A stretch of 64,000 nucleotides of DNA. Source: a virus. Within the stretch, counting starts at the first letter, position 1. Every line of letters begins with the position of its first letter. Below, piece by piece: positions 10,360 through 63,523 of the stretch. The stretch is taken from positions 97,407 to 161,406 of IMG/VR virus record IMGVR_UViG_3300020421_001669; one strand, 5' to 3'. The notes under the pieces were generated by a model that worked only from the letters and a program-made list of their open reading frames with translations, was not told the DNA's origin and did not search any database. The translations under genes and the position numbers were made by a program.

Positions 10360-10392
10360 GTGGGAAACAGATGTTTATGGAAGAAGCAATTA

Positions 10393-11646
10393 ATGGTCGG
10401 ATTTTTATCATATCTAAACGAAGATGCACAGGGGAAAAACCTACATCTTGAACACCTAGAAGACGAAATTCTTAATTTCGGAATAGGTGGAGCTCGTGGT
10501 GCAATTAATTTCCTACAGTCATTAAGAGATATGCTGTCGGGAAGTTCTCGTTCATCTGTAAACATGACAGTCAAGTGGGATGGCGCACCCGCTATATTTG
10601 CTGGTATAGACCCCAGTGATGGTAAATTCTTTGTTGCTAAGAAAGGTGTATTCAACAAGACACCACTATTATATAAGTCCACGCAAGAGATAAACAAAGA
10701 TAGTAAATTACCACAAGCACTAAAACCCGCCTTTATAATCGCATTACAAGAATTTAGTAAACTCGGAATCAAGGGTGTATTACAGGGTGACTTAATGTTC
10801 ACTTCTGGTTCACTTGAGTCCGAGACCATTGATGGTGAAAGATACACCACATTCCAACCAAATACAATAGTCTATGCTGTTCCTAAAATGTCAGAACTGG
10901 AACAGAAAATCAAAGCGGCTAAAATTGGTGTGGTATGGCACACTACATATACTGGTAACACACTAGAGAGTATGAAGGCATCTTTTGGTGTAAACATTAG
11001 TGGTCTCAGAAAATCAAAAAATGTCTGGATGGATGATGCTAGTTATAGAGATACTAGTGGAACTTCTACATTCACAAAAGCAGAAACCGCCGCTGTAACC
11101 ACGAAGTTGGCTAACTGTGGTAGGATATTTCAGAAAATAAATTCAGCACAATTAAGCAGTTTCTTAAAATTTCAAGCTGGGTTTACGGGCAAAATGGTTG
11201 GCGCCAACATCAAAACATATAACAATTCAAAAGTAAAAGTTGGTGCGAAGATATCAAATGTCGCTGGACATGTGTCTGGATATGCAAAATGGGTAGAAGA
11301 CAAATTTGATTCAGAGATAAATAAGTTAAAGACGGAGAAATCTAAAAGTCAACTAGAAAAAAGAAAGACTGAAACTCTAAGAGAACTATCTAAGTATAGT
11401 GTTCTTCTTACAAATGTCATCAATTTTCAGAACTCTATGGTAGAGGCGAAAATGATAATCGTTAGTAAATTAAATAGAGTAAAACAGTTAATGGATACCT
11501 TTGTTAGAACCAAACAGGGATTTAAAGTTACAAATCCAGAAGGATATGTTGCTATAGATAGGGTTTCTGGTAACGCGGTCAAACTAGTAGACAGAATGGA
11601 ATTCAGTTATAATAATTTTACAGCAATTAAGGCGTGGGATAGATGA
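10393..11646 (+). CDS. T4-like marine phage protein with ligase-type KxDG motif
   Basis: A 417-residue protein that I recall as common and uncharacterised in T4-like cyanophages and relatives (DUF6267-type). The segment VKWDGAPAIFAG (about residues 62-73) has the KxDG pattern of motif I in the nucleotidyltransferase fold of DNA and RNA ligases, where the Lys becomes adenylylated; FFVAKKG follows. The C-terminal half is helical and basic. ATG 10393 has GGAAG upstream, whereas the in-frame GTG 10360 would lie before the late start site. It overlaps the nucleotidylyltransferase gene by four bases. Ligase activity is inference. Confidence 0.7.
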   Translation: MVGFLSYLNEDAQGKNLHLEHLEDEILNFGIGGARGAINFLQSLRDMLSGSSRSSVNMTVKWDGAPAIFAGIDPSDGKFFVAKKGVFNKTPLLYKSTQEINKDSKLPQALKPAFIIALQEFSKLGIKGVLQGDLMFTSGSLESETIDGERYTTFQPNTIVYAVPKMSELEQKIKAAKIGVVWHTTYTGNTLESMKASFGVNISGLRKSKNVWMDDASYRDTSGTSTFTKAETAAVTTKLANCGRIFQKINSAQLSSFLKFQAGFTGKMVGANIKTYNNSKVKVGAKISNVAGHVSGYAKWVEDKFDSEINKLKTEKSKSQLEKRKTETLRELSKYSVLLTNVINFQNSMVEAKMIIVSKLNRVKQLMDTFVRTKQGFKVTNPEGYVAIDRVSGNAVKLVDRMEFSYNNFTAIKAWDR

Positions 11647-45935: not shown

Positions 45936-46426
45936 GTCTGGTTCTTCGTGTGACAGGTGGAAACAAATTCCAAAAACAGTTGGCGTTCGGCACCATACAG
46001 TTTGCTGTCAAGCGCCTCATTCCTACTATTAGAAAACTTGATATCAACATTCACATTCGGAGTTTCAAAAAAGAGGGTAGTACAATCGGATATTGTACCG
46101 ATGATTCATCTGACTTCTGTGACTTTGTTGGTAAGTCACCTAGGCGATTTCAAATTGAAGTATCAAAAGACTTGAACTTGACGGATTTCATTAGATGTAT
46201 TTTACATGAGTTTGTCCACCTCAAGCAATTTGTCAATCGTGAGATGGTAGAGTTAGATACTGGCAAGACCCGATGGAAGGGCAAAACCATTTCCAAAAAA
46301 GTTACATACAAAGACCAACCGTGGGAAAAAGAAGCTTACAGGTTGGAAGAGAAATTGCTCTGGGAGTGTTTAGAGCAACAAGAGTTTTTGACAACGGATA
46401 TTAATCGTAATGGAGTAAGAGCATGA
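45932..46426 (+). CDS. SprT-like zinc metallopeptidase
   Basis: A 164-residue protein with HEFVH (in CILHEFVHLKQF, about residues 91-102) and a downstream WEKEAYRLEE (about 130-139), the zinc ligand pattern of SprT/Wss1-like or related peptidases that act on DNA-bound or stress proteins. The start is TTG at 45932, overlapping the previous stop. Substrate unknown. Confidence 0.68.
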   Translation: MSLVLRVTGGNKFQKQLAFGTIQFAVKRLIPTIRKLDINIHIRSFKKEGSTIGYCTDDSSDFCDFVGKSPRRFQIEVSKDLNLTDFIRCILHEFVHLKQFVNREMVELDTGKTRWKGKTISKKVTYKDQPWEKEAYRLEEKLLWECLEQQEFLTTDINRNGVRA

Positions 46427-46587
46427 TTAGATGGATTATAGGGTTTTTCTTAATACTTGGTAGTGCTGGTGGTCTGGAACAAGACACCATGACTATCTCA
46501 CAAACACTGGCGTTTGCCACTTTGGGTTTTGCACTCATGGGGTGGGCGACTTCCGATTTCAATAAGCAATATGGAGAAGATGTATGA
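46423..46587 (+). CDS. 54-residue membrane protein
   Basis: A 54-residue ORF with two hydrophobic segments (about 3-15 and 28-42), starting at an ATGA junction and ending at another ATGA junction. Both couplings and topology support it. Function unknown. Confidence 0.62.
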   Translation: MIRWIIGFFLILGSAGGLEQDTMTISQTLAFATLGFALMGWATSDFNKQYGEDV

Positions 46588-46835
46588 TTCGTGTAAAAAG
46601 CAAAAACTACAAACAGGTCATTGACCTTGATGGGCCTGACGGCAATGCTTTCGTTTTGATGGGTACTGCCCGTGGTGTATTGCGAAAAGGTGGCGAGAAC
46701 GACTTCAGTGAAATGGTTCTCAAAGAAATGGCATCAAGTGACTACACCAATCTAGTCAAGACCTTTGACAAGTACCTTGGTTCGTACTTCACTCTTGAGA
46801 CTTCTAATGAAGAGTTGTTAGAGGCGTTATCTTGA
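46584..46835 (+). CDS. conserved small phage protein
   Basis: An 83-residue protein (DLDGPDGNAFVLMGTARGVL, then a helical part) with the form I recall in many phages as an unknown early protein. Couplings by ATGA on the upstream side and TTG overlap on the downstream side. Confidence 0.64.
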   Translation: MIRVKSKNYKQVIDLDGPDGNAFVLMGTARGVLRKGGENDFSEMVLKEMASSDYTNLVKTFDKYLGSYFTLETSNEELLEALS

Positions 46836-47029
46836 GTTATACCTATCTGAAAGAAATCACCGATTGGGGTGAACAGAAAGTTAAGAACCACACCTATATC
46901 TTCAATGAGAAGAATCAGAATGTTGGTTATATCATATCGGGAACCAAGGAAGAACTTTTCTACAATAAACCTTCCAAGTTGTTTAGTAAGGCGCGTAGAA
47001 AGTTCGTGGAGGTAAAACAATGGGCATGA
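46832..47029 (+). CDS. small basic protein
   Basis: A 65-residue protein with a TTG start overlapping the previous stop. Basic C-terminus (SKARRKFVEVKQW). No motif. Confidence 0.55.
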   Translation: MSYTYLKEITDWGEQKVKNHTYIFNEKNQNVGYIISGTKEELFYNKPSKLFSKARRKFVEVKQWA

Positions 47030-47349
47030 TGAACATGGGCGGTAGCCTTCGATACGATATGTCTGGGCGTAAGCGTAGAGCATATAAGAAGAATAATCCT
47101 ACGCGAAAAACCAAGATACAGGATTCTGGAAAACCTTTGCGTGTAGATAGTTCTCGTCTTGAAGAGATGAATGAACACAGGCGAAAGTATCCATCACTTA
47201 ATTCCTTTGGGCAGACTTCAGGCACTAAGGACGATAAGTGGATACGCGAGAAGCAAGAAATCTCGCAAGGTTATACTGTTGCACCCGCTTACAATAAAGG
47301 GGCGTATCAAGTAATTGGGAAGAGTAATATCAAAGATATTGGTAAATAA
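47020..47349 (+). CDS. small basic protein
   Basis: A 109-residue Lys/Arg/Ser/Asn-rich protein, N-terminus rich in Met and Gly, no folded motif seen. GGAGG precedes the ATG. Last gene before the tRNA. Confidence 0.6.
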   Translation: MGMMNMGGSLRYDMSGRKRRAYKKNNPTRKTKIQDSGKPLRVDSSRLEEMNEHRRKYPSLNSFGQTSGTKDDKWIREKQEISQGYTVAPAYNKGAYQVIGKSNIKDIGK

Positions 47350-47354
47350 CTTCT

Positions 47355-47431
47355 CTCCCAATAGCTCAACTGGATAGAGCAACGGCCTTCTAAGCCGTAG
47401 GTTGTAGGTTCGAGTCCTACTTGGGAGGCCA
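47355..47431 (+). tRNA. tRNA-Arg(UCU)
   Basis: A complete cloverleaf: acceptor CTCCCAA/TTGGGAG with discriminator G and encoded CCA, D stem GCTC/GAGC, anticodon stem ACGGC/GCCGT with loop CTTCTAA and anticodon TCT (47389-47391), and T arm with GTTCGAGT. It reads AGA, which dominates Arg codons in these AT-rich genes, so it likely supports phage translation. Confidence 0.95.
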
Positions 47432-47459
47432 AACAAAGGAAAAAAAATTAAAAAAACGC

Positions 47460-47488
47460 TTGACATTTGCAAAAAAGATCAGTATAAT
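47460..47488 (+). promoter_or_regulatory. perfect consensus sigma70 promoter
   Basis: TTGACA (47460-47465), 17-base spacer, TATAAT (47483-47488). A GATC lies in the spacer next to the -10 box. It drives the structured non-coding region. Confidence 0.88.
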
Positions 47489-47494
47489 GTTTAC

Positions 47495-47850
47495 TAAGTT
47501 GTATAAATAAGCATGCGGTGGACTGAATAGTACGATTCATTTCCAGTGAATTAGGTAAGGTGAAACTCCTTGACGCCGCTCCAAATTAACAGTTGTAGTC
47601 CTAGGCAAAGACTCCATCCTGTCACACTTTAAACTGCCTCGACTGAATGACGGTACTATGAGTACGATGCAGAGTAGGTCGTTAAACACATAAGGAGCCC
47701 TGAGCAGTGGCGCATGGTAACACACAGACCGAAAAAGGCTCAGTCCATCAGACTATGAGGGCAGTGATGGCCTCGATTAACATAGATGGACAAAGAGAGC
47801 TGGGCATCTCTCTTCATCCTAAACTGCCCACTACTTAGAAGGACAACAAG
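47495..47850 (+). ncRNA. candidate structured RNA with predicted pseudoknot
   Basis: About 350 bases without a credible ORF, behind a perfect consensus promoter. Helices: GCGGTG (47515-47520) with CGCCGC (47574-47579); GTACT/AGTAC (47653-47665); CTGAGC (47700-47705) with GCTCAG (47738-47743); CCATCA (47745-47750) with TGATGG (47765-47770); AAGAGAG (47793-47799) with CTCTCTT (47808-47814). The loop of the last helix contains TGGGCA (47801-47806), which pairs with TGCCCA (47825-47830), an H-type pseudoknot. GGGCAGT at 47760 offers a competing partner for ACTGCCC. It matches no RNA family that I recognise and ends just before a lipoprotein gene. Confidence 0.65.
47502..47509 (+). promoter_or_regulatory. 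T4-type late promoter TATAAATA
   Basis: Exact late consensus 14 bases after the early-type -10 box, so the downstream RNA could be made both early and late. Confidence 0.65.
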
Positions 47851-47852
47851 AA

Positions 47853-48014
47853 ATGAAGTACTTGAGTATATTAGTTGTTTGTATTATGATTAGTGCATGT
47901 AGCGGAAGAATAAATTTAATCGCTGAATTACCAAAAGACCAAGACCTAGATGTAAGAATTAAAACATCCAAGTCTGGTGGTGTGCATAAATCTAATACAC
48001 CAACAGCAGAATGA
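47853..48014 (+). CDS. small lipoprotein
   Basis: A 53-residue predicted lipoprotein with lipobox MISAC (Cys 16) and a short polar mature part. AAGGA lies upstream. It directly follows the structured RNA region, which may be its 5' leader. Function unknown. Confidence 0.62.
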   Translation: MKYLSILVVCIMISACSGRINLIAELPKDQDLDVRIKTSKSGGVHKSNTPTAE

Positions 48015-48083
48015 AAAGACGATAAGATTTGTCTTTCATACGCACCGAACTTTTGTTACGATGCGAATAAATGAATTGTGGGT

Positions 48084-48102
48084 GATTAACTTTTTGTTAA
48101 TC
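48084..48102 (+). repeat. A/T-rich hairpin
   Basis: GATTAAC, five T, GTTAATC: a perfect seven-base stem between the lipoprotein gene and the HTH gene. It could be a weak terminator or operator. Confidence 0.4.
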
Positions 48103-48127
48103 TTAATTGAAAAAAACGGAGTATAGT

Positions 48128-48418
48128 ATGAAAAAGAAAACTTCACAAGCAACAAAGGTTATTTCAGCCTTGGAGAAGGCAGACCAAGGTCTGACTGCTA
48201 ACGAAATGAAAAATAGGTTTGGCGTAACTAATGCGAGAGCATTGGTGACACACCTTCGTCAGAATGGTTTCGCCATTTATTTGAACAAAACACCTAAGTA
48301 CACTGACAGAAATGGCAATGTAAGAAAGGGTGTTTCACGATACCGTTTAGGTACACCATCTAGGGCAATTATTGCCGCTGGATACAAAGCTTTAGCAGCC
48401 TCAAGAGGTCTTGCTTAA
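48128..48418 (+). CDS. winged-helix DNA-binding protein
   Basis: A 96-residue basic protein with a helix-turn-helix pattern, QGLTANEMKNRFGVTNARALVTHLRQNG (about residues 20-47), then a wing (YLNKTPKYTDRNGNVRKGVSRYRLG). I recall close relatives in T4-like marine phages. Probably a transcription regulator. ATG 48128 with GGAG is preferred to the upstream in-frame start at 48107. Followed by a strong terminator. Confidence 0.75.
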   Translation: MKKKTSQATKVISALEKADQGLTANEMKNRFGVTNARALVTHLRQNGFAIYLNKTPKYTDRNGNVRKGVSRYRLGTPSRAIIAAGYKALAASRGLA

Positions 48419-48455
48419 GTTTTAACATTCGTTAGTTAATTATTCACAATGGAAT

Positions 48456-48484
48456 AAAGGGCGTCTTAGGATGCCCTTTTTTTT
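48456..48484. terminator. bidirectional rho-independent terminator
   Basis: AAAGGGCGTC, loop TTA, GGATGCCCTTT with T tract on the plus strand and the mirror A tract giving a T tail on the minus strand. It separates the convergent HTH gene and the minus-strand operon. Confidence 0.9.
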
Positions 48485-53860: not shown

Positions 53861-54589
53861 ATGAAAGGACTACAAAACTTATTAAGACCTACCCCTATCA
53901 GTCTACTGGTAGGGCAGACTATAGCCCAAATTTCAGTCATACCGATGTTCTTTATCGGTACACCTGTGACTTGGGCGATTTGTGCATTTATGTACTTTGG
54001 AATTATGACCTTTGGTATCACGATGGGATATCATAGATACTGGAGTCACTATAGTTTCAAGTGTTCTAAATGGTTAGAATATGTTATGATGTTTTTCGCC
54101 CACATTATGATGGTCGGCCCAGCACTAGCATGGGTTGCTCAACATAGGGAACATCATGTACACGCGGATACAGATAAAGACCCTCACTCTCCAGAGTATC
54201 AAGGATTAATTCGTTGTTACTACTCACAAGTGATGTCTTTACCTAAAATGCAATATGTAAAGAAAGATTTGATGAGGGATAAATTATGCAAGACACAACA
54301 TCGCTATTACTGGCATTTTATGCTACTATGGTTATTTGTTCTATTGTTATTTGGTGGCGCTGAAGCAGTCATATACGCATGGTTAGCTCCAGCAGGATTT
54401 GCAAAACTTATAGGTTCATTGGTATTCATACATTCACATCGAGGCGGAAAACCTAGAAGTGATTATTGGTTGGGTTTATTGACATTCGGTGAAGGGTTTC
54501 ACGCGAAACATCATGATGAACCTTGGAATTGGGATTTTCACTCTTGGGACATAGGTGGAAAAATTATTCGGTTATTAAAACATGCTTAA
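53861..54589 (+). CDS. membrane fatty acid desaturase
   Basis: A 242-residue acyl desaturase with the three His boxes of the membrane diiron family: HRYWSH (about residues 58-63), HREHH (about 95-99) and HAKHH (about 213-217), separated by membrane segments. It introduces a double bond in an acyl chain, likely Delta9-type. It is short for the family (about 280-350). An auxiliary metabolic gene that could alter host membrane fluidity or supply an unsaturated chain to the island's product. First gene of the accessory island. Confidence 0.9.
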   Translation: MKGLQNLLRPTPISLLVGQTIAQISVIPMFFIGTPVTWAICAFMYFGIMTFGITMGYHRYWSHYSFKCSKWLEYVMMFFAHIMMVGPALAWVAQHREHHVHADTDKDPHSPEYQGLIRCYYSQVMSLPKMQYVKKDLMRDKLCKTQHRYYWHFMLLWLFVLLLFGGAEAVIYAWLAPAGFAKLIGSLVFIHSHRGGKPRSDYWLGLLTFGEGFHAKHHDEPWNWDFHSWDIGGKIIRLLKHA

Positions 54590-55280
54590 AAAAAGAAATT
54601 TACCAGCTTGCGCTCCTATACCAAATATAAAGTTTAGTATTGAACGCATGAAAGAAGAACTAGATATTATTGGAGACAAGTATCAAAACATTTATGAGGC
54701 AAACCCAGGCATAACAAAAATACATGACCAAGGGTTTCTTGCTCAAATTTACAGTACGCTCCATGAAATACCTTTGATGTCAATGTCACCAGAAAACATG
54801 AAGAAAGCAGAAGACTTTCAAATAGAAGACATTGGAAAAAGTAAAATAGAAAGGGTAAGAAATAAAACAAAGAAAGGTGATAACTTACCACCAACCGCAA
54901 ATGAAATGTTGTGGGATTATCCTTTACCAGAATATAAAGGAAGTTACTTTGAGGAAGCGATATCAAACAAATTTAAAGCAGAAGCTTGTCGTGCAAGAAT
55001 ACACTTGTTAGAGCCGGGCAAAGATATTTCTCCCCATATTGATTATGACCCTTCTTATGGAGTTCGTGTTATATGTCCTATATCTGGAACGGATGGTGTA
55101 ACAAATTATTTTTGGTATAACGGAGAAAAACAAGAATATAATTTACCAGCAGACGGTAGTGTATATTTTCTTAATACAGGATTCAAACACTCAGTTGAAC
55201 ATCGTGGAAATGAAAATAGAATTGCTTTAGTATTGACTTTGAAATCCCAAGAAGATATAGAATGCCTAGCTATGAAATAA
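54582..55280 (+). CDS. 2OG-Fe(II) oxygenase (aspartyl/asparaginyl hydroxylase-like)
   Basis: A 232-residue protein with HIDYDPSYGVRV (about residues 149-160) giving the HxD iron ligands, and FKHSVEHRGNENRIALVLTL (about 205-224) giving the distal His and the 2OG-binding Arg. This is the beta-hydroxylase type. Substrate unknown. It overlaps the desaturase gene by eight bases and the GNAT gene by 19, so all three are probably made together. Confidence 0.72.
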   Translation: MLKKRNLPACAPIPNIKFSIERMKEELDIIGDKYQNIYEANPGITKIHDQGFLAQIYSTLHEIPLMSMSPENMKKAEDFQIEDIGKSKIERVRNKTKKGDNLPPTANEMLWDYPLPEYKGSYFEEAISNKFKAEACRARIHLLEPGKDISPHIDYDPSYGVRVICPISGTDGVTNYFWYNGEKQEYNLPADGSVYFLNTGFKHSVEHRGNENRIALVLTLKSQEDIECLAMK

Positions 55281-55873
55281 AAACATATACGCCAGATAAA
55301 AGGGCAGAAATAGAATCATTTAGAGAGTTATCCTTTAGAGAGGGTAACGATAGTATTTCTCATGAAAAGTATGACCCAGATAACATTGATGGGGAAACTT
55401 GGATGTCATATGTTGATAATGAATTGGCATGTATCAGTGTTGCTGAGTCTAGTCACTATACAGGTGACCCAGATATATCTGCTAGAATCTGTAGACTTCA
55501 TATCGCAAAAAAATTTAGACCAGCGTGGTTGGGTATACCCATATTACCACTGCAAATTGATTGGGCAAAAGAAAGAGGATTTAAGATATTATACTTCACG
55601 CATGATGTGAATAATAGGGCGATAAATTTGATGTATCAACATAAAAGATTTGGTGCAGCTGTTACACCCCTACAAAAAGAAATAAAAGAAATGTGGCACA
55701 GTGATTGGTATAGGTCATTACAAACAGATGACAGGTATCTTTTTCAAGTTGATAAAAGGATAGAATTATTACAGTACATTTATTACTGGGTGTTAGAAGA
55801 TGGATATGTCTGGCATCCGAAAACAAATATTATGGAGATGGATGATGAAAATAGGTCAAGAATCAGTAGCTAG
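55262..55873 (+). CDS. GNAT-like acyltransferase
   Basis: A 203-residue protein with a GNAT-type core: ARICRLHIAKKFRPAWLGIPIL (strand and start of the CoA loop, about residues 75-96), then WAKERGFKILYF and VNNRAINLMYQHKRFG (about 121-136). The acyl-CoA loop lacks the classic Q/RxxGxG/A, so donor binding is less certain. It fits an amine or hydroxyl acylation step in the island. Confidence 0.6.
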   Translation: MPSYEIKTYTPDKRAEIESFRELSFREGNDSISHEKYDPDNIDGETWMSYVDNELACISVAESSHYTGDPDISARICRLHIAKKFRPAWLGIPILPLQIDWAKERGFKILYFTHDVNNRAINLMYQHKRFGAAVTPLQKEIKEMWHSDWYRSLQTDDRYLFQVDKRIELLQYIYYWVLEDGYVWHPKTNIMEMDDENRSRISS

Positions 55874-56435
55874 GTGGTTTAACTATGTTAGAGAAAAACA
55901 TGACCCTTGGTTTACTCAAAGCTTCTGGGATACCCAGTTAAAATCTAAAGAAGAAATCATAGACAACATTCCACAACACTTTCACGGAAAGTATTATGTT
56001 TGTGGTGGTTGGTTTGGTGTCTTAGCACATTTATTAAATGACAATGTTGTCGCGGATGAAATCCATACAATTGACATTGACCCCCAATGCAAAGAGGTTG
56101 GTGATAGATATTTCTGTATGGACAATTTAACTTATGTTACAGCAGATATGTGTAAGTGGGATTATTCAGATGCAGATGTTGTAATCAATACAAGTACAGA
56201 ACACTTACATCAATACGCATACGATGAGTGGTGGGATAAAATACCTTCTAATACTTTCTATGCGGTACAAGGAAATGACCTTGATATACCAGACCATGTT
56301 CGTAACTTCAAATCATTAGAATACTTCACGGAATGGAATAGATGTACAAACACTGTTTATGAATCGGGTATAGAACTACGCGGGCCAAACAACTCAACTT
56401 ATACAAGATACACTGTTATGGGATACAAAGAATGA
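55845..56435 (+). CDS. class I methyltransferase-like protein
   Basis: A 196-residue protein with a modified motif I, YYVCGGWFGVLAHLL (about residues 41-55), acidic IHTIDIDPQC (about 64-73), ADMCKWDYSDADVVINTSTEHLH (about 90-112). The form recalls small Rossmann methyltransferases of phages. ATG 55845 has GGAG upstream and overlaps the GNAT-like gene by 29 bases. Substrate unknown. Confidence 0.62.
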   Translation: MKIGQESVARWFNYVREKHDPWFTQSFWDTQLKSKEEIIDNIPQHFHGKYYVCGGWFGVLAHLLNDNVVADEIHTIDIDPQCKEVGDRYFCMDNLTYVTADMCKWDYSDADVVINTSTEHLHQYAYDEWWDKIPSNTFYAVQGNDLDIPDHVRNFKSLEYFTEWNRCTNTVYESGIELRGPNNSTYTRYTVMGYKE

Positions 56436-57193
56436 AGACACAGGTTGCAATCATTGGACACGGATTTGTCGGAAAAGCAACGGAGAGGTTATTAAAAACT
56501 TCTAAACATGTGGGAAGAATACACATACAAGATATAAAATATAAAAAAAGAATTAGTCCCGATGAGTGGGATTTTATTAGTTATGCTTTTATATGTGTCC
56601 CTACACCACTGGAACTTGATGTAAGAGTTTCGTCTTGGGAATATGAAAAGAATAGATTTGATATGTCTCATATTGAAAAGGCAATCAAAGATATACCAAA
56701 GAAAGTACAGATAGTTATTCGTAGTACTGTTGGGCCAGAAAACCTAGAACCAGAATGGATACACATGCCAGAATTTTTGCGTGAGAAACATTGGGAGAAA
56801 GATATAGATGATAAATCAATACCTATTATGATTGGTTGTCCTTATGATGAAGAACTGTTAGATTGGTTTCCAGAGAGAACAACTCTTTGTTTAGAACCAA
56901 AAGAAGCTGCCATGTATAAACTATCAAGAAATGCCATGTTAGCAGCTAAGGTTACATTAGTTAATTACTTGTACAAAGCTTGTAACGAACACAATGTAGA
57001 CTACGATAATGTTAAAGATATGTTACAACAATATGCAGACTTAGGTAATTCTCATTGGGATGTGCCGGGCCCAGATGGTGAATTTGGTTTTGGTGGAACT
57101 TGTTTTCCAAAAGACACTACTCATTTCGCGTCACTGACTAGGGGAAAAAATATATTTGAAAGTATTTTAAAGATAAATGAACGAACTCGCTAA
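56432..57193 (+). CDS. UDP-glucose/GDP-mannose dehydrogenase-like protein, C-terminally short
   Basis: A 253-residue protein of the nucleotide-sugar 6-dehydrogenase family: NAD-binding IGHGFVGKA (about 8-16), CVPTP (about 56-60), RSTVGP, MPEFLRE, the connecting helix KLSRNAMLAAKVTLVNYL and catalytic GFGGTCFPKD (about 225-234). The family is usually 390-450 residues; the C-terminal nucleotide-sugar-binding domain is missing. It may bind a partner or a smaller substrate, or be inactive. Suggests sugar-acid or glycan chemistry in this island. Confidence 0.8.
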   Translation: MKTQVAIIGHGFVGKATERLLKTSKHVGRIHIQDIKYKKRISPDEWDFISYAFICVPTPLELDVRVSSWEYEKNRFDMSHIEKAIKDIPKKVQIVIRSTVGPENLEPEWIHMPEFLREKHWEKDIDDKSIPIMIGCPYDEELLDWFPERTTLCLEPKEAAMYKLSRNAMLAAKVTLVNYLYKACNEHNVDYDNVKDMLQQYADLGNSHWDVPGPDGEFGFGGTCFPKDTTHFASLTRGKNIFESILKINERTR

Positions 57194-58454
57194 ACACTAT
57201 CAAGATATTACTGACAGAAATAATGCAGTCGGTAAAGGATTTTGTGTACTCAAGTGGTGGCACTTAGAGATGCATTTGGGAACAGGGAACTATCATTCTT
57301 GTTTTCATTGTCCACAACAAAATCTAAAACTTGATGAAGACATGCATAACACCCTTCACAAAATGCAACAAAGAAAAACAATGTTGGAAGGTGGTAGACC
57401 AGATGAGTGTTCCTATTGTTGGAAGGCAGAAGATGCTGGTGCGGTAAGTCCAAGAACAACACTTACTCCAATATATCTTGACATGCAAGATGACATCATA
57501 GAAACCACATCACAATTGTCATGGGATGAATATGTCTACCCAAAATATCTTGAGATGAGTTTTTCAAATACATGTCAAATGAAATGTTCCTACTGCGCTC
57601 CATCTTTGAGTTCTACATTGTTAAAAGAAATAAAAGAAAAAGGAATATATCCATTACAGGATGCAGAGAATCGCGGTCAATATGAATTGAATGGAACAGA
57701 AGAACTTTATAAGGATGATGACAATCCTCTCATAGAAAAATTTTGGGGATGGTTTGATACCGCAGTAAATCATCTTGAGACACTAAGAATAACTGGTGGA
57801 GAACCCCTACTACACAAGAGCACATTTGATATGATGGAGAGATTAAAAAATGAAAATATTAACTTTCATGTAAACAGTAATCTGTCAATATCAAATAGAA
57901 GAGTAACCGATGCATGTAATCTTTTACCACCAAAGTCTAGGATATATGCCAGTATTGATACGCATGGCAAACAAGCGGAGTGGATTAGACACGGATTAAA
58001 CTGGGAACTGTTTGAACAAAATGTTCTCACCGTTCTTAATTATAAAATACCACTTAGTTTTATGACTACATTTTGTTTATTAAGTATACCAAAATTTAAA
58101 GACTTCTTATATTGGATTATACAAGCAAAAGAATTTGGGGATGTTACATTAGATACTCCCTTTATGACAAACCCACCACACTTATCTTGTTTGATTATGG
58201 ATGACAACTTGAGAAATATGTTAGAAGACTCATATCAATTTATGAAAGAAAATAGTGAGTTCAAACAACAAGAAGTAATCAAGTTTGAAAGAGTGCTAAA
58301 ATGGGTTGATGCAAATAGGTTCTCTGGAGAACGCCTAAATAGTCACAGAAAAGATTTTAAAACATTTGTCGATGAACATGATAAAAGAAGAAACACTAAC
58401 TGGCATGAATCGTTTCCAGAGTTGACATATTTTTATGAGTTGTGTGATGGCTGA
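57177..58454 (+). CDS. radical SAM protein 1 (twitch-type)
   Basis: A 425-residue radical SAM enzyme: CxxxCxxC motif in CQMKCSYC (about residues 133-140), the GGE motif in RITGGEPLL (about 208-216), and an N-terminal Cys patch (CFHC about 43, CSYCW about 79) found in phage radical SAM proteins with a small auxiliary cluster domain. These use S-adenosylmethionine and an iron-sulfur cluster to make a radical. Three more copies follow. Substrate unknown; peptide, sugar or nucleotide chemistry are all possible. Confidence 0.88.
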   Translation: MNELAKHYQDITDRNNAVGKGFCVLKWWHLEMHLGTGNYHSCFHCPQQNLKLDEDMHNTLHKMQQRKTMLEGGRPDECSYCWKAEDAGAVSPRTTLTPIYLDMQDDIIETTSQLSWDEYVYPKYLEMSFSNTCQMKCSYCAPSLSSTLLKEIKEKGIYPLQDAENRGQYELNGTEELYKDDDNPLIEKFWGWFDTAVNHLETLRITGGEPLLHKSTFDMMERLKNENINFHVNSNLSISNRRVTDACNLLPPKSRIYASIDTHGKQAEWIRHGLNWELFEQNVLTVLNYKIPLSFMTTFCLLSIPKFKDFLYWIIQAKEFGDVTLDTPFMTNPPHLSCLIMDDNLRNMLEDSYQFMKENSEFKQQEVIKFERVLKWVDANRFSGERLNSHRKDFKTFVDEHDKRRNTNWHESFPELTYFYELCDG

Positions 58455-59835
58455 AAATAAACCCAATGAATACTGGATAGAACAACTAAAACAGAAAAGA
58501 GAAAAGATTAACGATATTAGTCCTTCCTTTTGTTCTGCTAAATGGTTGCAAACTACTCTGTACTTACAGAATGGTTATAATCACTCTTGTCACCATCCAT
58601 CACCACACAAGATACCTGTAAAGGAAGTCTTGGAAAACCCAGCAGCCCTTCACAATAGTAATTATAAGAAGGAACAGAGGGTTAAGATGTTAAATGGTGT
58701 TAGACCAAAAGAGTGTGATTATTGTTGGCGTATAGAAGACCAAGGCAAAGACCACTTCTCTGACCGACATTATAAAACTGCTGATTGGTGGTCATGGGAT
58801 AAGGTTGATGTTATTGCAAGTGATAATCCAACCAGAGATGTATATCCAACATACTTAGAAGTATCGTTTTCAAATGCATGTAATTTCGCGTGTGCATATT
58901 GTTCACCAGAGATTAGTTCCAAGTGGATGAAGGATATAGAAAAGAATGGTGACTACCCTGTTGAGTTTGGTTCTGGTAATCTTGATTATTTGCGTTCTGT
59001 AGATAAGTTTCCATACAAACACTCTGACCCAAATCCATATGTTGATGCATTTTGGAAATGGTTTCCAGAAGCACTACCCCACTTAAAAGTATTCCGAATG
59101 ACAGGTGGTGAACCCACTATGAGTAAGGATGTGTGGAAAACTTTAGATTACATATATGAAAATGCAAACCCAGAATTGTCTATCGCAATCAATAGTAACT
59201 TAGGTACACCACCAGAATTAATACAGCGACTTGTTGACGCGGTAAATAAATTAAAAGATAAAGTCAAACAAATTGAGATATATACTAGCGCAGAAGCAAT
59301 AGGAGAACAAGCAGAATATATTAGAGATGGAATGGATTATGATTATTGGCGTTCTAATGTAGAAAAAGTTTTATCAGAAACAGACGCGAATGTAGCAATT
59401 ATGACTACATTGAATATATTGAGTATGACTACATTTGAAAGTTTCATTGAAGACATAATGCAGTTAAGAATCAAATATAATAAAGATTTAGCAAATAATA
59501 GAATACCGCTAAGTATAAACTATTTAAGATTCCCCCCACATTTACAATGTACTCTATTGGATAGAAATACCAGAATATCCTATGCATCTGATTATGAACT
59601 AATAGCAAAGGTTTGGTTAAAGTATAATTCACCAGACAAGTTTGCAAGAATTTATTTGGAAGAGTATGACCAGATACAAAGGTTTTGTGAATATCTAAGA
59701 CAAGAACACGAAGGTGCTGAAAAATATAGAGCAGACTTTGTAAATTATATAAAAGCCTACGATATCAGAAGAGAGAAAAACTTTAGCAAAACTTTTCCAG
59801 AATATAAACATTTATTGGAGTGGTGGGATGCCTAA
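58447..59835 (+). CDS. radical SAM protein 2 (twitch-type)
   Basis: A 462-residue paralogue of 57177: N-terminal CHHP (about 48) and CDYCW (about 91), core motif CNFACAYC (about 144-151), and RMTGGEPTM (about 217-225). ATG 58447 is preferred to 58435, which lacks a ribosome site. It overlaps the preceding gene by eight bases. Distinct from copy 1 in sequence, so the copies probably act on different positions or substrates. Confidence 0.87.
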   Translation: MAENKPNEYWIEQLKQKREKINDISPSFCSAKWLQTTLYLQNGYNHSCHHPSPHKIPVKEVLENPAALHNSNYKKEQRVKMLNGVRPKECDYCWRIEDQGKDHFSDRHYKTADWWSWDKVDVIASDNPTRDVYPTYLEVSFSNACNFACAYCSPEISSKWMKDIEKNGDYPVEFGSGNLDYLRSVDKFPYKHSDPNPYVDAFWKWFPEALPHLKVFRMTGGEPTMSKDVWKTLDYIYENANPELSIAINSNLGTPPELIQRLVDAVNKLKDKVKQIEIYTSAEAIGEQAEYIRDGMDYDYWRSNVEKVLSETDANVAIMTTLNILSMTTFESFIEDIMQLRIKYNKDLANNRIPLSINYLRFPPHLQCTLLDRNTRISYASDYELIAKVWLKYNSPDKFARIYLEEYDQIQRFCEYLRQEHEGAEKYRADFVNYIKAYDIRREKNFSKTFPEYKHLLEWWDA

Positions 59836-60055
59836 AAAATACATTCATGTAAACATGCATAAGATTCGTGCTAATAAAAAACATGGAACAAACGAACCTG
59901 TTCTTACAGTAAAAGAGGGAAGAAAAAATACTTATGGTCACAGTGTAAAAATACATGGCCCCAGTGAAGTAATATATGGTGGAAATGATAAACCATTGTT
60001 ACCATGTGGGGCGAGAGTTGTTATAATGACAGAAGCGGAGATTGAAATTGAATAA
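59828..60055 (+). CDS. small protein between radical SAM genes
   Basis: A 75-residue protein (MPKKYIHVNMHKIRANKKHG; VKIHGPSEVIYGGNDKPLLPCGARVVIMTE) that I recall from marine phage genomes next to metabolic genes, always unknown. It overlaps radical SAM gene 2 by eight bases and ends inside the start of radical SAM gene 3. It might be a substrate, a chaperone or an unrelated conserved small protein. No leader/core structure of a ribosomal peptide precursor is clear. Confidence 0.65.
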   Translation: MPKKYIHVNMHKIRANKKHGTNEPVLTVKEGRKNTYGHSVKIHGPSEVIYGGNDKPLLPCGARVVIMTEAEIEIE

Positions 60056-61550
60056 AGAGTATGATTTGATAAAATATCGTAAAGATATTCTTGATACCAA
60101 GTCAACAAGTTTTTGTGGTGCGAAGTGGTATAATGCTACTACATGGTTAGGTAGTGGTACTACTGCTTCTTGTCATCACCCCCCAGCACATAAAATTCCG
60201 TTACATGAGATTGCAGCTGACCCATCTGCTATTCACAACACGCAACATAAGAAAGCAATGCGTAAGATGATGCAACGCGGAGAAAGACCGCGTGAGTGTG
60301 AGTATTGTTGGAAAGTTGAAGACATGGGAACCGATGCTGTTAGTGACAGGGTATATAAGTCAATCATATACACTAATGAAGATTTAAAGAAGGCACACGA
60401 AGCAGACCACAACGATAATACATTACTAAAAACATTTGAGATTGCATTTGACCGAACATGTAACCTTGCTTGTTCTTATTGTAACTCAAGTTTCTCTACT
60501 ACATGGGCAAAGGATATAAAGAAACATGGCCCTTATCAAAACATGGTATCAGATGGTGCAGCCGCCTTCCAACATGACGGTGCGTGGGCAGACCCATATG
60601 GTAAGAAAGAAGAGAATCCATATGTAACTGCTTTCTGGGATTGGTGGGAAGATGGACTATCGGAAAGTCTTGAAGAATTGAGAGTTACAGGTGGAGAACC
60701 TTTAATGTCTGACCAAGTATGGAAGTTGTTTGATTGGTTTGAGAATAATCCTTCTGATATGCGATTTGCAGTAAACTCTAATCTTATTGCCAAAGAAAGC
60801 ATTGTTGATAGATTGATAGAAAAATCAAAGGGTGTTAAGAAGTTTCATCTTTATACTAGTTGTGAGGCAACAGGAAAACAAGCTGAGTATATAAGGGACG
60901 GATTGGACTACGAACTCTGGACTAAAAATATAACACGATTTATTAAAGAAGGCAACTATGAAGGTATCAATATAATGATGACTATTAATAGTTTGTGTTT
61001 GTTTAGTATAACAGACTTCTTAGATGATGTATTTAAATTGAAAGAGTTAACAAAAAGTAAATCGCCAGTGTTTAGTGTAAACCTATTGAGATTTCCAAGT
61101 TTCCAAAGTCCTCTTTCATTACCAGACCATATCAAAGATTACCTTAGAGAAAATCTATCTAAGTGGTATGAAGAAAACAAAGACAGACCATATTGGCATG
61201 ACTTTGAAAAAGCAAGTGTTGAAAGGTTGATAGACTATCTAGTAATTGTTGATGCACCACACAGAAGAACTAGTGACAAAATGACTTTGTGGAGAGACTT
61301 TAAAACATTCTATGGACAGTATGATAAAAGAAGAGATAAAAGTTTGTCAGTGTTCCCAGAAATTCTTACTGATTGGGTTGATACAATCCCAGATACAGAA
61401 ACTAAACCTATTACAGTTATGCCAAGTGGTGATAGTACAGAACAATACGCGGATGACCCAGACTTGAAAAAGATTGCAGAAGAAGAAGGTTGGGTATTAA
61501 AACCAGACAATAAAAATATAGATGAGGCACTAGGAGATTACGACAAATGA
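60048..61550 (+). CDS. radical SAM protein 3 (twitch-type)
   Basis: A 500-residue paralogue: N-terminal CHHP (about 42) and CEYCW (about 84), core CNLACSYC (about 136-143) and RVTGGEPLM (about 211-219). It carries an acidic C-terminal tail of about 60 residues not seen in the other copies. TTG 60048, seven bases after GGAG, is the best start; TTG 60042 is too close to it. Closest to copy 2. Confidence 0.87.
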   Translation: MNKEYDLIKYRKDILDTKSTSFCGAKWYNATTWLGSGTTASCHHPPAHKIPLHEIAADPSAIHNTQHKKAMRKMMQRGERPRECEYCWKVEDMGTDAVSDRVYKSIIYTNEDLKKAHEADHNDNTLLKTFEIAFDRTCNLACSYCNSSFSTTWAKDIKKHGPYQNMVSDGAAAFQHDGAWADPYGKKEENPYVTAFWDWWEDGLSESLEELRVTGGEPLMSDQVWKLFDWFENNPSDMRFAVNSNLIAKESIVDRLIEKSKGVKKFHLYTSCEATGKQAEYIRDGLDYELWTKNITRFIKEGNYEGINIMMTINSLCLFSITDFLDDVFKLKELTKSKSPVFSVNLLRFPSFQSPLSLPDHIKDYLRENLSKWYEENKDRPYWHDFEKASVERLIDYLVIVDAPHRRTSDKMTLWRDFKTFYGQYDKRRDKSLSVFPEILTDWVDTIPDTETKPITVMPSGDSTEQYADDPDLKKIAEEEGWVLKPDNKNIDEALGDYDK

Positions 61551-61987
61551 GAATACTAATATGTGGATTGCCGGGCTCTGGAAAAACTACTCTTGCGAGA
61601 GAGTTGTCATATCATTTTTGTCTGCCACATTTTAACGCAGACACAATACGAGAACATTTTAATGATTGGGATTTCTCTCCAGAAGGAAGAGAAAGACAAG
61701 CTTGGCGTTTTGCTAACGATTATCCCTTTGGGATATTTGACTTTGTTGCACCACTTGAACACTATCGAAAGTTGGTTGCAGCTGATTGTACTATCTTTAT
61801 GAACACGATAGGTGAAGGTAGATACAAAGATACAAATAAAATATTTGAACCACCACTATCGTGTGATTATGAGGTAAAAAAATGGATAGAACTAAACCAA
61901 CTACGCAGCTCCTTGGAAGGTTTCAACCGTGGCATAGAGGGCATACAGAACTATTTAAAAGAGCAATTTCCAAAACTGGTCAAGTAA
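61547..61987 (+). CDS. APS-kinase-like P-loop kinase
   Basis: A 146-residue P-loop protein: CGLPGSGKTTLAREL (about residues 6-20) and FNADTIREHFNDW (about 29-41), the DxxR pattern of adenylylsulfate kinases, which make the sulfate donor PAPS. It is shorter than CysC. Sulfotransferase-like proteins at 31351 and 63520 would use PAPS. Its last 106 bases overlap the next gene in another frame. Other phosphoryl acceptors are possible. Confidence 0.7.
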   Translation: MRILICGLPGSGKTTLARELSYHFCLPHFNADTIREHFNDWDFSPEGRERQAWRFANDYPFGIFDFVAPLEHYRKLVAADCTIFMNTIGEGRYKDTNKIFEPPLSCDYEVKKWIELNQLRSSLEGFNRGIEGIQNYLKEQFPKLVK

Positions 61988-62232
61988 TAATACTGTTAAG
62001 ACAAACACCGATTGATGAAAACAATCCATACACTATTGAAGATAGAAGAAGTATGATTGCTATTGCACTCAATGAATCTGGATATGTTTATGGAGAGGAC
62101 TATGAAGTTATGGGCGTACCTAATATAACACATATTACATATGGTAGAGATGTTGGATATACAATTGAAAAGGAGAACTTAGAGGAGGATATAGAAAATA
62201 TCTCAGCTACCAAAATTCGTAATGAAAGATAG
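61882..62232 (+). CDS. nucleotidylyltransferase (HxGH superfamily)
   Basis: A 116-residue protein with GRFQPWHRGHTELF (about residues 12-25, HxGH motif) and ISATKIR (about 107-113). Family members transfer AMP or CMP onto phosphate-containing small molecules. GAGG precedes its ATG, and the frame is fully open for 116 codons, so the 106-base overlap with the APS-kinase-like gene appears real. In this setting it could charge sulfate (as APS), a sugar phosphate or NMN. Confidence 0.75.
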   Translation: MDRTKPTTQLLGRFQPWHRGHTELFKRAISKTGQVIILLRQTPIDENNPYTIEDRRSMIAIALNESGYVYGEDYEVMGVPNITHITYGRDVGYTIEKENLEEDIENISATKIRNER

Positions 62233-63523
62233 ACCTTACCTTTGCACCGCACCGTGGACACATACATATGTCTCCCCACAAGGAGAACGAAGGTTGTGTT
62301 GTGCTAGCAGAGAAGAGGCGTCTTTTCAAAAACAATATTTGGATAGTGGTACTGCGGAAGGAAAGTTTGAACCACAGTCCTTAAAAGAACATTGGAATAG
62401 TGACTATATGAAAGACATCCGTAAAAGGATGTTAGCAGGAGAAAAATTAAAACAATGTCAAGTATGTAACGACCAAGTTTTGAATCTACATACTTATCGT
62501 CAATATTTTACAGAGACATTGTTCCCCCATAAAGTAAAAGACATTATAGCGACTACGCGAGAAGACGGACATTATGATAAGATGCCAGTCTCGTATGATT
62601 ATCGTATTTCTAATCTATGTAACTTTAAATGTCGGATGTGTGGGGAACAATTGTCTTCTAGTTGGGAAGCAGAGAAGAAGAAACACAACCTTATTGATGT
62701 AAAACAAGACCCTTGGATGGAACCCACCACCAGAAAAAAGATATCTAAATTTCAAGATGAAATATTAGAAGAAGAGTTACAACGAGCAGTAGATAATAAA
62801 ACTATAGAGGAAATATACTGGGTTGGTGGTGAACCGTTGATGTTTGAACGACACTGGACTGTTATGCAAGAACTAGTGGATAACGGTCACGCGAAGAATG
62901 TTACTATTCGATATAACACAAACTTGAGTCGGGTAAAATACAAGGATTATAATCTGTGGGAAATGTTACCACACTTTAAAAGTGTAAACATATGTGCCAG
63001 TATTGATGGTGCATATGATGTAGGTGAATATATCAGAGATGGTTTAGTATGGAGTGAGTGGATAGAAAATTTCAAGTCTGGTATGTTTTTGATAGACCAG
63101 TTTGGGGACGATGCACTGGTGTTTGATGTTACACTTACAACGCCAGGCTTATTTCATCTTGATAAGTTGATTGATGTTGCCAGTTCTCTTGACATAAAGT
63201 CATACTTTAAATTTACATATGCATTTGACCCAAGTGTTGTTATGTCACCATTCTGTCTTCCTAAAGATGTGCTTTTACCTCAAGTTGATTCATTAATGCA
63301 ACATATAGAGGAACGACTAACATGGAAAACAAAAGTTTATAAAGATTCACTAGTTAACCTAATAAATAGAGAGTCATTTGATGAACAATGGCCTAAAACA
63401 TATAAAAACGGATTGAAACGCGGAAAAGAGTTTCAAGAATATCTTGATAATTTAAGAAATACCAAATTGAAGTTTGTTGATACTCTTCACGGTAACGCCG
63501 TGGATTGGTGGAATGAAATATGA
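62222..63523 (+). CDS. radical SAM protein 4 (twitch-type)
   Basis: A 433-residue radical SAM enzyme: N-terminal LCTAPWTH (about residue 7), CCAS (about 26) and CQVC (about 80), core motif CNFKCRMC (about 132-139) and WVGGEPLM (about 201-208). The N-terminal AxW and CC pattern differs from copies 1-3, so it belongs to another branch of the same superfamily. It overlaps the nucleotidylyltransferase gene by 11 bases and the last gene by four. Confidence 0.87.
   Translation: MKDRPYLCTAPWTHTYVSPQGERRLCCASREEASFQKQYLDSGTAEGKFEPQSLKEHWNSDYMKDIRKRMLAGEKLKQCQVCNDQVLNLHTYRQYFTETLFPHKVKDIIATTREDGHYDKMPVSYDYRISNLCNFKCRMCGEQLSSSWEAEKKKHNLIDVKQDPWMEPTTRKKISKFQDEILEEELQRAVDNKTIEEIYWVGGEPLMFERHWTVMQELVDNGHAKNVTIRYNTNLSRVKYKDYNLWEMLPHFKSVNICASIDGAYDVGEYIRDGLVWSEWIENFKSGMFLIDQFGDDALVFDVTLTTPGLFHLDKLIDVASSLDIKSYFKFTYAFDPSVVMSPFCLPKDVLLPQVDSLMQHIEERLTWKTKVYKDSLVNLINRESFDEQWPKTYKNGLKRGKEFQEYLDNLRNTKLKFVDTLHGNAVDWWNEI

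Follow-up and report, generated by a model that had tools for sequence, protein, structure and literature searches.

A conserved, compact tRNA-Gly(UCC)-like element behind early and late promoters in a marine T4-like phage

tRNA-Pyl has a single base between its acceptor and D stems, a mini D-loop without GG and an altered T-loop, and the non-proteinogenic tRNA-Gly of Staphylococcus epidermidis carries U54-G55. The canonical tRNA elbow is formed by G18-Psi55 and G19-C56 (PMC4810234), and the non-proteinogenic tRNA-Gly of S. aureus has UU or CU at positions 18-19 together with an A51-U63 pair (PMC4052509). Among phages, several T4-like members encode tRNA-Gly(UCC) (PMC1524935), and the described defence-evading phage tRNAs act through anticodon-loop changes or by supplying the tRNA that was cut (PMC10264068, PMC11555353).

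The element described here lies in the terminal 64 kb of an IMG/VR record of 161,406 bases, and by the window we mean the whole of that 64 kb stretch. Its source is a marine T4-like phage, with genes for a T4-like DNA polymerase, UvsX, a DnaB-type helicase and ribonucleotide reductase. Like canonical tRNA-Gly(UCC), the element has four arms, a seven-base UCC anticodon loop, U33, a purine at 37, a U73-CCA end and the glycine identity set; unlike it, the element is 69-70 nt long, with a six-pair acceptor followed by a G7/A66 mismatch, a T-loop of UGARACU and a three-pair D-arm whose 4-5 base loop lacks G18G19, and it stands at the front of an operon, followed by a conserved structured 3' RNA. 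With the Staphylococcus tRNA-Gly it shares the missing G18G19 and a weak 51-63 pair (A-U/U-A, an EF-Tu feature), but it belongs to a marine phage and has A56, a mini D-arm and U-G at 49-65. As with defence-evading phage tRNAs, its form is not the normal one and it could withstand host attack on tRNAs, although here the elbow is altered and the anticodon loop is ordinary. The one-base gap between acceptor and D stem, the GG-less mini D-loop and the altered T-loop recall tRNA-Pyl, whereas the glycine identity, UCC anticodon, six-pair acceptor and five-pair anticodon stem do not, and the element is no CUA suppressor.

Carriers, promoters and transcription unit

Relatives came from two protein-guided scans and then from blastn with the non-coding stretch, which returned two contigs at ~87% and one far relative. 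Pattern and neighbour-protein scans widened the set to six carrier contigs: the window, L152 (=L082/L120), L154 (=L083/L107), L155 (=L125), L153 (=L147) and L128 (=L081/L084). These six hold four distinct tRNA-like sequences, and our statistics are limited accordingly. Among GenBank phages no homologue of the stretch was found at blastn sensitivity, wider scans giving chance matches only, and a pattern scan of bacterial (GTDB) genomes gave just three chance-like matches. An earlier sequence-only reading of this DNA recognised no RNA family in the stretch, and an Rfam scan agrees: the stretch matches none, nor do three homologues at E 10.

The features of the locus are as follows.

47355-47431: tRNA-Arg(UCU), neighbour of the RNA in the window
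47460..47488, plus strand: sigma-70 type promoter, TTGACA-17-TATAAT, for early transcription
47502..47509, plus strand: T4-type late promoter TATAAATA, predicted +1 at G1 of the tRNA-like RNA (47515)
47853..48014, plus strand: small lipoprotein-like ORF, 53 aa, missing from carrier L081/L128
48128..48418, plus strand: winged-helix protein (Pfam HTH_39), 96 aa, 3' of the RNA in 6/6 carriers
48456..48484, plus strand: intrinsic terminator, the first one 3' of the promoters

Both promoters had been picked out by the sequence-only reading, and both hold up: the sigma-70 promoter is perfect (12/12 consensus positions), and the exact TATAAATA box begins 13 bases 3' of its -10 box. Exact sigma-70 consensus with 16-18 base spacing occurs twice in the window against 0.15 expected; TATAAATA by itself is not rare (nine against 5.3 expected). 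The sigma-70 hexamers and their 17-base spacer are identical in all six carriers, and the late box is also kept in each of the five others. In T4 the late promoter box spans -13 to -6 (PMC1524935). From the last base of the box to G1 the distance is six bases in five carriers and five in L081, so that the late start is predicted on the mature tRNA terminus or a single base away, and with this predicted start the box is placed as the -13 to -6 span of a T4-type late unit would have it. The sigma-70 box of L081 lies 47 bases ahead of G1, as against 26-27 elsewhere, with the late spacing unchanged.

The lipoprotein gene follows the RNA in 5/6 carriers, and L152, L155 and L153 have a terminator at the equivalent site. 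Because the next terminator comes only at 48456, the lipoprotein/winged-helix transcript probably has this RNA at its head as well. The suggestion that the stretch is a regulatory RNA or a long leader for the lipoprotein thus survives in part, as a conserved, structured non-coding RNA at the probable head of that transcript; its 5' domain, however, is tRNA-like. The adjoining tRNA noted before does exist as tRNA-Arg(UCU), the sole recognised tRNA of the window phage, but this neighbour is incidental and lacks conservation: none of the five other carrier contigs, which measure 43-137 kb and may be fragments, matches the Rfam tRNA model.

In three other contigs (L156, L157 and L158), HTH_39 winged-helix relatives sit in or beside the tRNA clusters of other phages, in L158 about 90 bases 3' of tRNA-Tyr. 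Compared with L082 over 46400-48420, the window shows a four-fold site identity of 0.45-0.51 in the upstream genes, rising to 0.98-1.0 in those for the lipoprotein and the winged-helix protein, and its tRNA-like RNA is nearer to that of the distant L128 than to that of L082; the identity jump and the L128-like RNA together point to a recombination edge at the RNA. Further along, window positions 53861-63523 hold four consecutive radical-SAM proteins, in a block that also has fatty-acid desaturase, aspartyl-hydroxylase-like and UDP-glucose dehydrogenase-like proteins.

The cloverleaf and its 3' region

The long stretch without a plausible gene that had been described behind the promoters is real (~340 bases, up to the lipoprotein start at 47853). 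As a conserved reading frame, a 43-aa frame at 47707-47838 was rejected: it has no family match and changes among relatives, being 85 aa and fused to the lipoprotein in L152 and 47 aa in L154. The stretch contains the following parts.

47515..47583, plus strand: tRNA-Gly(UCC)-like cloverleaf, 69 nt, with encoded U73-CCA, recognised by descriptor, compensation, MFE and homologues
47515..47520, plus strand: acceptor 5' strand GCGGTG, pairing with CGCCGC at 47574-47579 and followed by unpaired G7
47522..47531, plus strand: mini D-arm ACT-GAAT-AGT, in relatives ACG-GTATT-CGT, a U-A to G-C compensation; no G18G19
47535..47551, plus strand: anticodon arm ATTCA-TTTCCAG-TGAAT, with anticodon TCC at 47542-47544 (Gly), U33 and A37
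47556..47572, plus strand: T-arm TAAGG-TGAAACT-CCTTG, two stem pairs changing on both sides; T-loop UGARACU
47580..47583, plus strand: discriminator U73 and encoded CCA, invariant in all carriers
47584..47842, plus strand: structured 3' region, conserved, with two compensated helices and kept strings

The 5' domain, whose conserved block reads GCGGTG-G-ACT-GAAT-AGT-ACG-ATTCA-TTTCCAG-TGAAT-TAGG-TAAGG-TGAAACT-CCTTG-A-CGCCGC-T-CCA, is very probably a tRNA-derived, conserved cloverleaf. A descriptor that asked for a seven-base acceptor with at most one mismatch, five-pair anticodon and T stems, U33 and an NCCA end, with other loops free, matched only tRNA-Arg and this element on both strands of the window, against a chance rate of 0.017 per 64 kb in random sequence of the same order-1 composition. 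Among the four distinct sequences, 97.4% of cloverleaf pairs are kept, and five pairs change on both sides: one in the D stem, from U-A to G-C, and two each in the anticodon and T stems, one of them showing three pair types; in L152, L154 and L155, pair 27-43 of the anticodon stem is disrupted. The covariation score of the cloverleaf is 0.377, as against 0.150 for shuffles and 0.000-0.114 with the partner slid. The compensatory changes in homologues that would support a structured RNA are therefore found for the cloverleaf, though none occur for the pseudoknot or the switch first proposed. The minimum free energy fold is a four-arm cloverleaf in 4/4 distinct sequences, at an energy not below that of shuffles. 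A covariance model built from the element only finds the canonical tRNA-Glu(CUC) of another phage (35 bits, E 1e-5, 1.17 Mb). From these patterns, a chance origin of the cloverleaf would be hard to keep.

The element has the four arms of a canonical tRNA and is missed by ARAGORN and by the Rfam tRNA model RF00005, the latter giving no match even at E 10, and its loop bases are not the canonical ones; it is a tRNA variant, by sequence tests outside the canonical class. It is identical to that of L128 at 64/69 positions, while four-fold sites of the neighbouring genes agree at only 0.27-0.61, and this, with the lack of any other tRNA match on the five carriers, indicates that the element is kept alone, under constraint. 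A viral 3' tRNA-like structure was considered and set aside, the element being a contiguous cloverleaf at the 5' end with a continuous acceptor, as was tmRNA: there is no domain split around a tag frame, and ARAGORN detects none.

Near relatives share 86-90% identity over the 3' region and L128 54%, and its conservation reaches the ribosome-binding site. In both the helix CTGARC/GYTCAG (47700-47705 with 47738-47743) and the helix GAGR/YCTC (47757-47760 with 47771-47774), one pair is altered on both strands; a hairpin lies at 47597-47613, and the strings AGTCCTAGRCA, AAACTGYCTCG and CGTTAAA are kept. Over the whole stretch, the folding energy is no better than that of shuffles (z -0.31). For the full-length transcripts of L152 and L128, the cloverleaf is predicted as the dominant fold only if the RNA is cut. 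A group I intron and a cobalamin or FMN riboswitch, prompted by GGTGAAACTCC, were without Rfam support and were rejected; CTGARC..GYTCAG-UCCA, considered as another tRNA-like domain further 3', has one compensated pair in its outer helix but neither T-arm nor anticodon arm, and we do not propose it as one; and an early/late folding switch was predicted for the window and is absent in relatives.

Glycine identity, possible function and competing readings

The bacterial tRNA-Gly identity set comprises U73, G1-C72, C2-G71, G3-C70, C35 and C36 (PMC9976931). All six are present and invariant in every carrier, as are U33, U34 and A37, and because the full set is present we propose charging by the host glycyl-tRNA synthetase (GlyRS); judged from these bases, the element can probably be charged with glycine. 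The elbow departs from convention: the T-loop UGARACU (G55, A56) stands in place of UUCRANY with U54-U55-C56, and the D-loop of 4-5 bases is GAAU, GUAU or GUAUU and always contains AU. On our placing of positions 18 and 19 in so short a loop, A18-G55 and U19-A56 would restore the elbow.

We propose, with a probability of roughly 0.55 for the whole, that the element is a compact, glycine-charged tRNA-Gly(UCC), made early and late, with a rebuilt elbow and most likely used in decoding. Early RNA would come from the host-type promoter and late RNA from the T4-type promoter, the latter beginning at tRNA nucleotide 1; RNase P would trim ~20 leader bases from early transcripts, and late ones would need no trimming. 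The gene itself would supply the CCA end, the tRNA would be released from the 3' RNA, and host GlyRS would charge it. The A18-G55/U19-A56 elbow would preserve the L shape at the loss of the host mark at U55 and of the standard elbow. The phage would thereby gain a Gly-tRNA(UCC) open to different handling by host factors or by defences directed against normal tRNAs, and its most likely use would be in reading GGA/GGG codons. Decoding as the main use falls a little short of an even chance, and glycine codon usage in the phage (GGA 28%, GGU 51%) suggests no strong decoding need.

It is a real, though lesser, possibility that this tRNA-Gly is no longer used for ordinary decoding: charged by host GlyRS, leaderless when made late and with a recoded elbow that keeps it from EF-Tu and from host factors that bind the elbow, it might serve as a decoy, donate glycine or form a 5' element of its mRNA that responds to charging, together with a conserved 3' RNA of new fold. 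An outright non-decoding mimic, Gly-charged or uncharged, is a live but less likely rival; it would titrate GlyRS, RNase P, modifying enzymes or a defence that cuts tRNAs, or else give glycine to a non-ribosomal transferase, as the Staphylococcus non-proteinogenic tRNA-Gly does. Such a role would suit the combination of full GlyRS identity with a non-standard elbow, and GGA is not over-used; moreover, the other carrier contigs have no Rfam-detectable tRNA, which places the element outside any codon-compensation set. The missing G18G19 and the A-U/U-A pair at 51-63 are shared with the S. aureus cell-wall tRNA-Gly (PMC4052509), and for this reason we retain a non-decoding reading. Against the mimic, the anticodon loop is invariant, U33, U34 and A37 included, pair 49-65 is U-G here and A-U in the S. 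aureus tRNA, and a search of the phage for a FemXAB-type partner (FemAB, PF02388; Acetyltransf_6, PF13480) found none, though the host could supply one. Less likely still is a tRNA-like 5' element that stays on the lipoprotein/winged-helix mRNA, as a decay shield or for regulation through GlyRS or RNase P, with the 3' region. The late transcript would begin paired at G1, no terminator precedes 48456, the same winged-helix gene lies downstream in 6/6 carriers and conservation of the 3' region extends to the ribosome-binding site; yet a 5' cap needs neither U73-CCA nor a complete anticodon loop, L128 has no lipoprotein, and the window's predicted difference between early and late folds is lost in relatives.

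Two further explanations carry very little weight. A tRNA-Gly pseudogene in decay, the remnant of a tRNA cluster, would account for the non-standard loops and for the adjoining tRNA-Arg in the window phage, and T4 encodes both tRNA-Gly(UCC) and tRNA-Arg(UCU). Such decay is very improbable, however, and is contradicted by five pairs that change on both sides, invariant identity elements, two kept promoters and 93% identity to L128 where four-fold sites stand at 0.27-0.61. The model first put forward, a regulatory RNA with a pseudoknot and a GGGCAGT/ACTGCCC switch, is scarcely credible: the strings are present and the 3' region is conserved and structured, but the switch helix shows no compensatory change and has one pair broken in one homologue, and of two helices that share two bases, only the overlapping GAGG/CCTC compensates. 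The H-type pseudoknot had been proposed with its strands unnamed; the example that we tested, GGACU/AGUCC, is reduced to four pairs in 3/5 distinct carriers, never compensates, and would occupy acceptor and covarying D-stem bases.

By standard tools the carrier phages come out as tRNA-poor or tRNA-free, although each retains a single tRNA-shaped gene behind two strong promoters. If the proposed tRNA-Gly(UCC) is charged, it would offer a minimal natural test of tRNA elbow function and of why phages retain tRNAs: a lone tRNA for a single amino acid, outside any codon-compensation set, whose elbow may escape recognition by host enzymes.

Elbows and possible permuted genes among other phage tRNAs

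A 98 kb phage contig unrelated to the window (L321, IMGVR_UViG_3300049719_000225, bases 73500-89600; also L132) has 33 ARAGORN tRNAs, and G55 is found in all 33, with T-loops mostly UGC or AGC. Its D-loops mostly have AG in place of GG, an apparent swap of the G18-Psi55 tertiary pair for A18-G55 over the whole tRNA set. Across all loci, a D-loop GG goes with U55 in 74 tRNAs and AG with G55 in 31, the latter mostly from one phage, with one GG/G55 exception and five unclassified; in L322, the sole G55 tRNA among ten (His) is also the AG one. These bona fide tRNAs support the A18-G55 pair proposed for the element. The swap throughout the tRNAs of one phage suggests a wider, overlooked phenomenon of elbow recoding among phage tRNAs, partly concealed by tRNA finders. 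Within the incomplete literature covered, we found no publication on elbow-recoded phage tRNAs.

On the minus strand of L321, 12541-12603 holds the 3' half of a tRNA-Arg(UCU) with the T-loop UGAAAAU, and 45 bases 3' of it, from ~12506 downwards, come an acceptor 5' strand GGGGGCC and a D-stem strand GTCC, making this a candidate circularly permuted phage tRNA gene. The T4-like phage contig L086, which encodes DNA polymerase, Hsp20 and a DNA methylase, has a permuted two-piece tmRNA at 482-808 (tag ANDNDFAIAA). At 11715-12790 of L086 lies a probable intein with a homing-endonuclease-like insert, judged by eye, which interrupts a relative of the window's phrog_455 gene (10360-11646).
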